Below, piece by piece: positions 9,747 through 17,326 of a stretch of DNA of 22,064 bases. Position 1 is the first letter of the stretch, and each line of letters starts with the position of its first letter. The notes under the pieces were generated by a model. That model searched no databases, had not been told where the DNA came from, and worked only from the letters and a program-made list of their open reading frames with translations. The stretch lies in the IMG/VR virus record IMGVR_UViG_3300047371_000105, positions 1 to 22,064 of that record; one strand, given 5' to 3'. Source of the DNA: a virus. The position numbers and the translations under genes were made by a program.

Positions 9747-10222
9747 AAACAGTAAATATAAAAGGTAAGGAGTATATAACCGTAAACGAACGGCTTATAC
9801 ACTTTAGAAAAGAAGCTGCCTATAAGGGCTGGCGAATAGTCGAAGACCTAGTAAGTCTAGACGACAAAGAAGGCGTATTTAAAGCTACTATTTTGGACCC
9901 AGACGGTAACGAAATGGTAAGCGCACACGCCCAGGAATACCGCGATAGTAGCTACATAAATAAAACGTCGTTTTTAGAAAACGGCTTTACTAGTGCTTTA
10001 GGGCGCGCGTTAGGCTATTTAGGTATAGGACTAGACACTAGTATAGCTAGTGCTGACGAAGTAGGTAACGCTGTAGCAAACCAGGATAACAAAAGCTGGC
10101 TAACAGAAAACCAACTAAACGCAACCCTAAAGGGTACGGCAGACCAGGCTAAAAAAGTACTGGCTAATTACAAAATGAAAAAAGAGTATAACCAGCAGAT
10201 AACTGCAAAATTTAATATATAA
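9743..10222 (+). CDS. Erf/Sak-like ssDNA-annealing protein
   Basis: A 159-residue protein starting at GTG (9743) that overlaps the preceding TGA, so translation is probably coupled. The segment FLENGFTSALGRALGYLGIGLDTSIASADEV (77-107) matches the E..xTSAxGRALxxLGIG...IASADEV signature of Erf-like/Rad52-superfamily annealing proteins common in phages. The N-terminus (VNERLIHFRKEAAYKGWRIVEDL) also fits. The role would be annealing complementary single strands during recombination. The neighbourhood supports it: an SSB-like gene follows immediately and a RecE-like nuclease is two genes on. The exact subfamily cannot be fixed by eye. Confidence 0.55.
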   Translation: MKTVNIKGKEYITVNERLIHFRKEAAYKGWRIVEDLVSLDDKEGVFKATILDPDGNEMVSAHAQEYRDSSYINKTSFLENGFTSALGRALGYLGIGLDTSIASADEVGNAVANQDNKSWLTENQLNATLKGTADQAKKVLANYKMKKEYNQQITAKFNI

Positions 10223-10523: not shown

Positions 10524-10552
10524 AGCCTGGGCGCCTAGCGCCTGGGCTTTTT
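10524..10552 (+). terminator. Intrinsic terminator after the SSB-like gene
   Basis: An 11-bp stem AGCCTGGGCGC (10524-10534) / GCGCCTGGGCT (10538-10548), with two G-U pairs and a CTA loop, followed by TTTTT. It is GC-rich compared with its surroundings and is the strongest hairpin in this part of the window. Confidence 0.85.
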
Positions 10553-10564
10553 AATTATAAACAA

Positions 10565-10786
10565 ATGCAAGTGCAAATAGATTTAAAAGACAGAGTAGGC
10601 GAACTACTAGAACTTATACAAATTGCAGAACTATATCTAGTAGAAGCTATGTATTTTGATGTAAATGTAGAAGAACTATCTAAAGAAGAACTTATAAAAC
10701 GGTATAAAGAACTAAATAAAGGTTCTGATAAAGCTATAGATAACTTATATAAAGTAACAGAAATACTAGAAATATACGAATTTTAA
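10565..10786 (+). CDS. Small helical hypothetical protein
   Basis: A 73-residue acidic, wholly helical protein with a heptad-like Leu/Ile pattern (VGELLELIQIAELYLVEAM, EELIKRYKELNKGSDKAIDNLYKVTEILEIYEF). Unrecognised. Its ATG follows the A-rich leader (taaacaaATG) used by several genes in this block. Slightly more AT-rich than neighbours. Possibly an accessory replication or anti-host protein; nothing in the sequence decides. Confidence 0.55.
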   Translation: MQVQIDLKDRVGELLELIQIAELYLVEAMYFDVNVEELSKEELIKRYKELNKGSDKAIDNLYKVTEILEIYEF

Positions 10787-16254: not shown

Positions 16255-16404
16255 ATGTCGAAACCAGATATACTATTAAAAAGGGACTTAGAACGGCTTA
16301 AACTAGAAAAGTCTGAACTATACCAAAGGGTTATACAACTGGAAGCCGAAAACGGTCTACTACGTACACAAATTAAAATAAAGTTTGGTTTAAAAGTAGA
16401 ATAG
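16255..16404 (+). CDS. Small coiled-coil protein
   Basis: A 49-residue gene from ATG 16255 to TAG 16402-16404. LKRDLERLKLEKSELYQRVIQLEAENGLLRTQI (8-40) has a clear heptad repeat, a leucine-zipper-like coiled coil, followed by a short basic end. It starts 3 nt after the previous stop, so likely the same transcript. No family recognised. Confidence 0.55.
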   Translation: MSKPDILLKRDLERLKLEKSELYQRVIQLEAENGLLRTQIKIKFGLKVE

Positions 16405-16437
16405 CTAACCTGTAAAACCTAAAAAGTTTAAGATTTA

Positions 16438-16468
16438 TTTGCAACTATAGATTTTTTGTGTACATTTG
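16438..16468 (+). promoter_or_regulatory. Bacteroidota-type promoter (TTTG-N19-TACATTTG)
   Basis: TTTG at 16438-16441 and TACATTTG at 16461-16468 are separated by exactly 19 nt, matching the -33/-7 arrangement of the Bacteroidota primary sigma factor. The surrounding 92-nt gap is AT-rich and gene-free. Transcription should start near 16473-16476, about 22 nt before the ATG at 16497. This is the best promoter match in the window. Confidence 0.75.
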
Positions 16469-16496
16469 TACTGTTAAACAATTAAAAACAGACAAA

Positions 16497-16649
16497 ATGA
16501 CAACAGAATTTAAACTAAACTACATCGAAAACAAATTAAGAAAATCAGGAAATAAATTACCTAATACACAGATAACTTTTATAGCAAGTCAATTATTACA
16601 GCAATGTAATAAATTAAATAAATCAGTTTACGATTTAGAAATAATATAA
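16497..16649 (+). CDS. Small hypothetical protein in its own transcription unit
   Basis: A 50-residue helical protein (MTTEFKLNYIENKLRKSGNKLPNTQITFIASQLLQQCNKLNKSVYDLEII). The ATG at 16497 is preferred over the longer open frame from 16458, because the promoter -7 box lies inside that extension. Base use is more AT-rich and less phage-like than its neighbours (TCA, TTA and AAT codons). It is flanked by the best promoter and by a hairpin terminator, making a self-contained cassette. No family recognised; a moron-type host-takeover or anti-defence gene is a reasonable guess. Confidence 0.6.
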   Translation: MTTEFKLNYIENKLRKSGNKLPNTQITFIASQLLQQCNKLNKSVYDLEII

Positions 16650-16660
16650 ATGAAACAAAT

Positions 16661-16680
16661 AGGGGGTGTAAAAACCCCCT
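16661..16680 (+). terminator. Hairpin terminator after the small cassette gene
   Basis: Stem AGGGGGT (16661-16667) / ACCCCCT (16674-16680) with loop GTAAAA, 11 nt after the stop at 16649. It is followed by TTATAAT, so the T tract is weak. It stands out as a GC-only stem in AT-rich surroundings. Confidence 0.65.
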
Positions 16681-16706
16681 TTATAATAACACTAAAAACA
16701 GAAACA

Positions 16707-16901
16707 ATGCAAAAAATACATTTTCCAGCGCTTAAATACATACAAAGCCGCAAAACAAAGCTAGACCAAGCCGAAGCCAGAATAGCCCAGCTAAGGTTGT
16801 CTATTAAGCTAAAAGACGACGAAATTAACAAGCTAAACGAAGAACTAATACGGCAGCGGAATATAATAACCAAAGCCCAACGGCTACTAAAACAGCTATA
16901 G
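16707..16901 (+). CDS. Small coiled-coil protein
   Basis: A 64-residue protein starting at ATG 16707. An upstream in-frame ATG at 16650 would read through the hairpin at 16661-16680, so the later start, with the A-rich leader seen elsewhere (gaaacaATG), is preferred. KTKLDQAEARIAQLRLSIKLKDDEINKLNEELIRQRNIITKAQRLLKQL is one long coiled coil. It is the second small coiled-coil protein in this region. Unknown function. A terminator follows directly. Confidence 0.6.
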   Translation: MQKIHFPALKYIQSRKTKLDQAEARIAQLRLSIKLKDDEINKLNEELIRQRNIITKAQRLLKQL

Positions 16902-16908
16902 TAACAAG

Positions 16909-16932
16909 CCCACTAATTAAGTGGGTTTTTTT
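16909..16932 (+). terminator. Intrinsic terminator before the packaging genes
   Basis: Stem CCCACT (16909-16914) / AGTGGG (16920-16925) with loop AATTA, followed by seven T (16926-16932). It lies 7 nt after the coiled-coil gene and separates the replication block from the terminase operon. Confidence 0.8.
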
Positions 16933-16960
16933 ATGCTTATTAGTTTACGGCGTTTTTACG

Positions 16961-16968
16961 TACTTTTG
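16961..16968 (+). promoter_or_regulatory. Candidate -7 promoter element (TACTTTTG) for the packaging operon
   Basis: TACTTTTG fits TAnnTTTG, sits just after a terminator and ends 4 nt before the terminase ATG at 16973, so the message would be leaderless or nearly so. No clear -33 TTTG at the expected distance. Confidence 0.5.
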
Positions 16969-16972
16969 CAAT

Positions 16973-17326
16973 ATGGCTACACAAAATACACAACAGAAAA
17001 AAACCGCACTACTAGAAGCCTTAGAAAAAAGCTTAGGCGTAGTAACTACCGCTTGCAAGCAAGTAGGTATAGCTAGGAAAACTTACTACCTATGGATAGC
17101 TAAAGACAAAGCCTTTAAAGATGCTGTAGACGATATTAGTAACGTAGCCCTAGACTTTGCAGAAAGTAAACTACATAGCCTTATAAGGGACGAAAACCCT
17201 ACGGCTATTATATTCTACCTAAAGACAAAAGGTAAGAAACGCGGCTATATAGAACGCCAAGAGATAGCCCACGACGGTAGTATAGAAAGCAAGCTAATCG
17301 AATGGAAGCCAGCAGACAAAAAGTAA
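16973..17326 (+). CDS. terS: Terminase small subunit
   Basis: A 117-residue TerS that recognises phage DNA and recruits the large subunit. The N-terminus has a helix-turn-helix (LGVVTTACKQVGIARKTYYLWIAKDKAF, 21-48), followed by the family's oligomerisation part (DFAESKLHSLIRDENPTAIIFYLKTKGKKRGYIER, 61-95). This NPTAIIFYLKTKGKKRGY pattern is well known in Bacteroidota and other phage TerS proteins. Its end overlaps the start of TerL by 25 nt, the usual arrangement. The C-terminal IEWKPADKK is probably the flexible segment contacting TerL. Confidence 0.88.
   Translation: MATQNTQQKKTALLEALEKSLGVVTTACKQVGIARKTYYLWIAKDKAFKDAVDDISNVALDFAESKLHSLIRDENPTAIIFYLKTKGKKRGYIERQEIAHDGSIESKLIEWKPADKK

Follow-up and report, generated by a model that had tools for sequence, protein, structure and literature searches.

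Gene 0.3 of phage T7, a small gene that is the first to be read, differs between relatives and counters host restriction. Morons, by the definition given in the accessible part of PMC4378225, are small coding units that carry a promoter and a hairpin, lie between genes adjacent in relatives, and deviate in composition. The same portion of that paper deals with temperate Mu-like phages of Pseudomonas, where regions of genomic plasticity (RGPs) are fixed loci with zero to six small accessory open reading frames whose contents differ in near-identical phages; RGP G holds anti-CRISPR genes. In T4-type phages, promoter early stem-loop (PeSL) cassettes (Arbiol 2010; Comeau 2014; as described in the available sections of PMC4503421 and PMC5931544) have a promoter and a stem-loop between small accessory genes; homology ends at these elements, and the modules are shuffled between phages.

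Here we describe a locus that has features of all these systems. It lies in a virus record of 22,064 bases, analysed in full and called the window below. A preliminary description of this DNA had recognized at 16438-16680 a self-contained cassette of promoter, gene and terminator with the architecture of a moron. We find instead an accessory slot with constant ends, located just before the gene for the terminase small subunit, in which small genes are swapped between relatives; its present first gene, g50, recurs in viruses that are otherwise unrelated to the window.

Results

The window encodes a primase/helicase, the small and large terminase subunits (TerS and TerL) and a portal protein. 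In annotated phages, where none of the 1288 matching records reaches 60% identity, the closest TerL proteins are those of Phocaeicola and Bacteroides phages, at about 40%. Taken together, the type of promoter described below and the nearest annotated TerL point to a probable host in the Bacteroidota. Relatives were collected by their TerL (the best 80 of 239); the rows of L044 and L047 were excluded from the slot table as negative-coordinate artefacts. The close set consists of 23 loci with TerL at least 92% identical, the window and L002 counted in. Twenty of them cover the region that separates the conserved small genes from terS, whereas in L017, L021 and L041, which were excluded, the slot is cut by the end of the contig.

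All features of the locus lie on the plus strand. The slot itself (16406-16952) is the stretch lacking in L018-L020, with approximate breakpoints (one T is ambiguous). Its left border is a conserved small gene (16255-16404) for a protein of 49 aa with a predicted coiled coil, which shows 90-100% identity among those close relatives in which it occurs and is missing in L029, L032 and L040. The right border is terS (16973-17326), preceded by a -7 element (TACTTTTG, 16961-16968) that is retained in filled and empty relatives alike. In L018-L020, whose TerL is 99% identical to that of the window, the flanking gene and terS are adjacent, with 22 nt from the stop of the small gene to terS (25 nt counting the stop codon), and the suggested insertion between co-directional genes is thereby borne out.

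The slot promoter (16438-16468) is of the Bacteroidota type, TTTG-N19-TACATTTG, with TTTG at 16438-16441 and TACATTTG at 16461-16468; the housekeeping promoter of Bacteroidota is given as TTTG/TANNTTTG in the accessible text of PMC6847099. The match is present where it had been placed before, but the motif alone is not above chance in the window: two strict matches were observed against 0.88 expected, and at least two occurred in 22 of 100 shuffles. What makes the promoter credible is its conservation, since a matching promoter stands at the same position in all 15 filled slots of close relatives, though the gene behind it differs. It is followed by a leader (16469-16496), near-identical to the leader in the unrelated locus L003, and by g50 (16497-16649), with an ATG at 16497, 50 codons and a stop that ends at 16649, as the preliminary description had it.

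Downstream of g50 lies a G5/C5 hairpin (16661-16680), and then a second cargo gene (16707-16901) for a 64-aa protein with a predicted coiled coil, whose family is found in most, not all, filled slots. The slot is closed by an intrinsic terminator (16906-16928) that was listed by the plus-strand scan and has the same form, GCCCAC...GTGGGTTTTTT, in 15 of 15 filled slots. The hairpin, previously regarded as the end of the cassette, does form a stable fold (-13.6 kcal/mol, z -2.5), but it is devoid of a T-run, fails a simple terminator test on the plus strand (at this place the scan reported the minus strand only) and is followed by the second gene. In L030, L031, L033, L034 and L040 it follows first genes that are unrelated, as an internal junction between cargo genes. 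The notion of a self-contained unit of 243 nt was therefore wrong: there is a further gene behind the hairpin, and what relatives possess or lack is a stretch of about 547 nt. Elsewhere in the window, a strong GC-rich hairpin with a T-run (10524-10548) is followed by a small gene (10565-10786) with GC 0.27 and GC3 0.11, perhaps another accessory site.

Among the 20 close loci, 15 have a filled slot and five an empty one. Nine different ordered contents, each of one to three small genes, occupy the filled slots, one of them being that of L033 and L034; g50 is present in two of the 20 loci, namely the window and L002, and these two look like the same virus. This comparison, run as a refutation test, left the accessory status of g50 standing: the gene is rare among close relatives, atypical in composition and recurrent in unrelated phages. 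At 82% TerL identity, four of the five loci (L035-L037, L039) show the strict promoter, one other gene, the terminator and terS, and the remaining one (L038) has a gene and the terminator without a strict promoter match. Further contents appear at 66-68% TerL identity in L057, L061, L063, L064, L068 and L102, in a table that covers gaps of at least 20 nt only, and four loci at this distance (L056, L058, L065, L072) are empty, with 16-18 nt between the small gene and terS. L102 has a relative of g50 (82% identical) at a place that other genes occupy in L061, where the neighbours and the terminator are the same. In relatives with TerL at about 64-70%, the region that leads from the small genes to terS also includes a gene for an N6/N4 DNA methyltransferase (L043, 3505-4632) or a ParB-like gene (L102, 4326-4763); both are compatible with a defence-related region and prove nothing about it.

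The AT-rich composition noted earlier for g50 was confirmed: its GC content is 0.220 and its GC3 0.160, and none of 5204 windows of 50 codons from the 27 other genes of the window is as low in GC. TTA accounts for six of the seven leucine codons, a share reached by 1.5% of such windows. Comparison of the window with nine other g50 sequences gave dN/dS values of 0.05-0.67, below 0.25 in seven of the nine, and judged by these ratios the gene is under purifying selection. The AlphaFold2 model, built from 11 sequences, has two helices (pLDDT 89.5, pTM 0.70). Searches with g50 gave no match in Pfam or NCBIfam at E<=1 and nothing better than E=0.73 among PDB sequences; with the model, Foldseek gave no match in PDB and viral folds at E<=0.001, and its matches at E >= 0.6 were discarded as two-helix matches. 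The sole PHROG match (phrog_27006, E 0.12) was not used. With the patterns used, 84,980 genomes of bacteria and archaea yielded no relatives, and neither did annotated phages beyond a single chance hit (MH319756.1, E 0.7) that falls inside a 393-aa gene. Also rejected were L015 as a distant relative, its match being antisense within a 1401-aa frame, and a common family of g50 with cargo families 10, 13, 16 or 20, which hhalign did not support.

Besides the window record, g50 occurs in 15 viral contigs, most of them with unrelated or distant backbones; several are sister phages, so the independent lineages number fewer than 15 (L010 and L108 were excluded as copies of L098). The gene stands before terS in L002 and L102, after the capsid gene in L003, L008, L097, L098 and L104 (cut), after terL in L096 and L101, in replication or early regions in L004, L005, L009, L099 and L100, and at the contig end in L103. 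By blastn, most of these contigs have in common with the window only about 115-270 nt around g50, the exceptions being L102, with long stretches at 66-67%, and L104, with one stretch at 64%. Where TerL could be matched, its identity to that of the window is 66, 43, 34, 32 and 28%, against 74-98% for g50. A TAHHTTTG box is found upstream of g50 in 13 of 15 loci, against 1.4 expected (two loci are without it). Downstream, 11 of the 15 have a GC-rich hairpin, against 0.1 expected (four have no strong hairpin). In L100 (about 10001-10153) the same hairpin (GGGAGG...GCCTCC) flanks g50 on both sides, as if each gene were bordered by a copy.

The borders of the exchanged segment are seen best between the window and L003, which have a common backbone gene 57% identical at the protein level. 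They differ at 2 of 153 nt in g50 and at 3 of 37 nt from the -7 box to the ATG, against 36 of 63 nt further upstream and 59 of 100 nt beyond the hairpin arm; homology thus stops at the -7 box of the promoter and at the hairpin. L003 retains the hairpin and the promoter that belong to its own slot, and in sister phages that hairpin stands behind other first genes. Because homology ends at these points and the hairpins stand behind unrelated genes, the moved unit would be the leader with the gene, bordered inside the promoter and in the hairpin. The ends of homology in this one clear pair suggest recombination at the shared leader.

A second slot is known from relatives, the window record being cut in that region. 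The capsid gene of L003, itself a g50 locus, was used to collect 80 loci. Over all loci of the analysis, both the capsid and the connector genes could be placed in 66. The capsid gene is followed by a promoter that is constant and a gene that varies. In the 21 loci with capsid at least 90% identical (L098, with a truncated capsid, was excluded), the first position is occupied by 12 families, and each position after it by one or two. In L192 and L193 (TerL 94%) the constant genes follow directly behind the promoter region, so that the second slot is empty. Both slots belong to one phage group, since the capsid and the TerL of the two sets of loci are found together on single records in 15 of 18 and 17 of 20 cases. 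One contig of 35,483 bases (L114 and L117) carries two capsid genes about 27 kb apart, 100% and 96% identical to the L003 capsid, and is either a chimeric assembly or something odder.

Clustering of 372 proteins from both slots yielded 77 families, three of which, including g50, are found in both. Family 16 likewise occurs in both slots, and also just downstream of terL, behind a strict promoter, in phages with no more than 29-35% TerL identity to the window (L241, L242, L260, L261). The site after terL is a third recurring docking site, common to family 16 and g50 (L096 and L101). Pfam gave no confident match for 20 other cargo proteins. For one cargo protein the lead PF12843 was weak (E 5e-4, below its cut-off), and an NCBIfam match of the same protein to the C-terminus of DNA polymerase III epsilon (E 3e-5) was far below the cut-off. 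Eight other contigs (L233-L240), two of them of 50-57 kb, have matches to the C-terminal 26 residues of family 10; in the two examined (L235, L240), no listed frame of at least 40 aa covers the match as a clear gene.

Discussion

The slot works like PeSL shuffling in a phage that is not of the T4 type, and it agrees with a moron in location and composition but not in being a self-contained unit. As in PeSL cassettes, a promoter box and a stem-loop mark the borders of most g50 copies, and genes are exchanged with homology ending at these elements, as seen in the window and L003 and in the pattern at the level of the slots. Here, however, the records are of about 28-34 kb and not T4-like, the promoter is of the Bacteroidota TTTG/TAnnTTTG type rather than a T4 early promoter, the slots are fixed and have one constant promoter, often with just one gene that varies, and the cargo is common to phages with unrelated TerL. 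As in a moron, an accessory gene of deviating composition stands behind a promoter between genes that lie next to each other in relatives. Nevertheless, both promoter and terminator are outside the moved unit and stay constant while the genes change, only the leader and the gene being exchanged, and the contents are replaced rather than simply appearing or vanishing. The Mu-like plasticity regions resemble the slot as fixed loci of variable content; here the slot opens with a constant promoter, and its contents match no named family by sequence. Gene 0.3 of T7 is likewise a small gene that differs between relatives, but it is read from early host promoters located at the end of the genome, whereas these slots lie among late-type genes. 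Among the titles found in a literature search, largely without subscription papers, none describes such slots in these phages.

A moron in the classic sense would have arrived as one 243-nt unit of promoter, gene and terminator, expressed from a prophage to the benefit of the lysogen. The promoter, the odd composition and the insertion point all agree with such an origin, and so do the box and the hairpin that surround most copies of g50; yet the promoter and the terminator remain when the cargo changes, and the homology of the transferred copies ends inside the promoter and in the hairpin. Moreover, none of the 20 records searched, which may be fragments, has a match to the Phage_integrase family, which leaves a prophage role without support. 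We consider this origin distinctly improbable. Hardly more can be said for the idea that the swapped genes are structural or packaging accessories, such as decoration or terminase-associated proteins, although it would account for docking sites upstream of terS and downstream of terL and of the capsid gene, and the accessible part of PMC4378225 counts genes for capsid decoration among the morons. Many unrelated families occupy one slot, five of the contigs have g50 in a replication or early region, and the gene serves phages with TerL 28-66% identical to that of the window, which would be unlikely for a close partner of a virion protein.

It is also unlikely that the cargo is selfish or neutral, with short reading frames that drift through a permissive gap between transcription units and have no common function. 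The lack of a detectable family for most of the cargo and the existence of empty slots are what one would then expect, but g50 shows purifying selection, and the same families are found repeatedly and independently behind promoters at the same sites. In our view the locus is probably one of several plug-in slots, related in kind to morons and PeSL cassettes, in a Bacteroidota-type phage, with a fixed promoter and terminator and swapped small genes, of which g50 would act on the host or its defence.

Under this plug-in reading, a promoter of the type used by the housekeeping sigma factor of the host and a terminator, both of them fixed, would form an expression site between the small gene and terS, which the host polymerase could, given the promoter type, read without phage factors. 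Small genes would enter and leave by recombination in short stretches common to all cargo, namely the -7 box with the leader on the left and the hairpin or the terminator on the right; the current cargo would be a two-helix protein of 50 residues and a coiled-coil protein. Since the contents of the slot vary among close relatives and g50 is also found in unrelated viruses, g50 looks like an interchangeable accessory part.

An action of the g50 protein on the host or on a defence system would explain both the rapid turnover between sister phages and the sharing between unrelated ones. Anti-defence or host takeover seems the likeliest function, considering the turnover, the sharing, the small size, the host-type promoter and the analogy with the anti-CRISPR genes of the Mu-like plasticity regions; it is because those regions house anti-defence genes that a similar role may be suggested for slot cargo in general. 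In Pfam, NCBIfam, PHROGs, PDB and viral folds, g50 matched no known inhibitor by sequence or fold, and as no family or fold match was found, the function proposed here is a guess.

More tentatively, and with somewhat more doubt than confidence, we suggest that a few sites with a constant host-type promoter and terminator, ahead of terS and behind terL and the capsid gene, are filled from one pool of single-gene cassettes that circulates among otherwise unrelated phages through recombination at the shared leader and hairpin, without an integrase. This would be a cassette system without a recombinase of its own, its pool enriched for unknown anti-defence proteins. To our knowledge, very few anti-defence genes have been described in such phages. 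If the suggestion holds, the slot is a collecting point, and a catalogue of what stands behind the two constant promoters would comprise dozens of families of small accessory genes. Shuffling by promoter and stem-loop would then extend beyond T4-type phages to another phage group with another type of promoter, and, as the border of a cassette can lie inside the promoter, the receiving phage would retain control of expression of the genes that it takes up.
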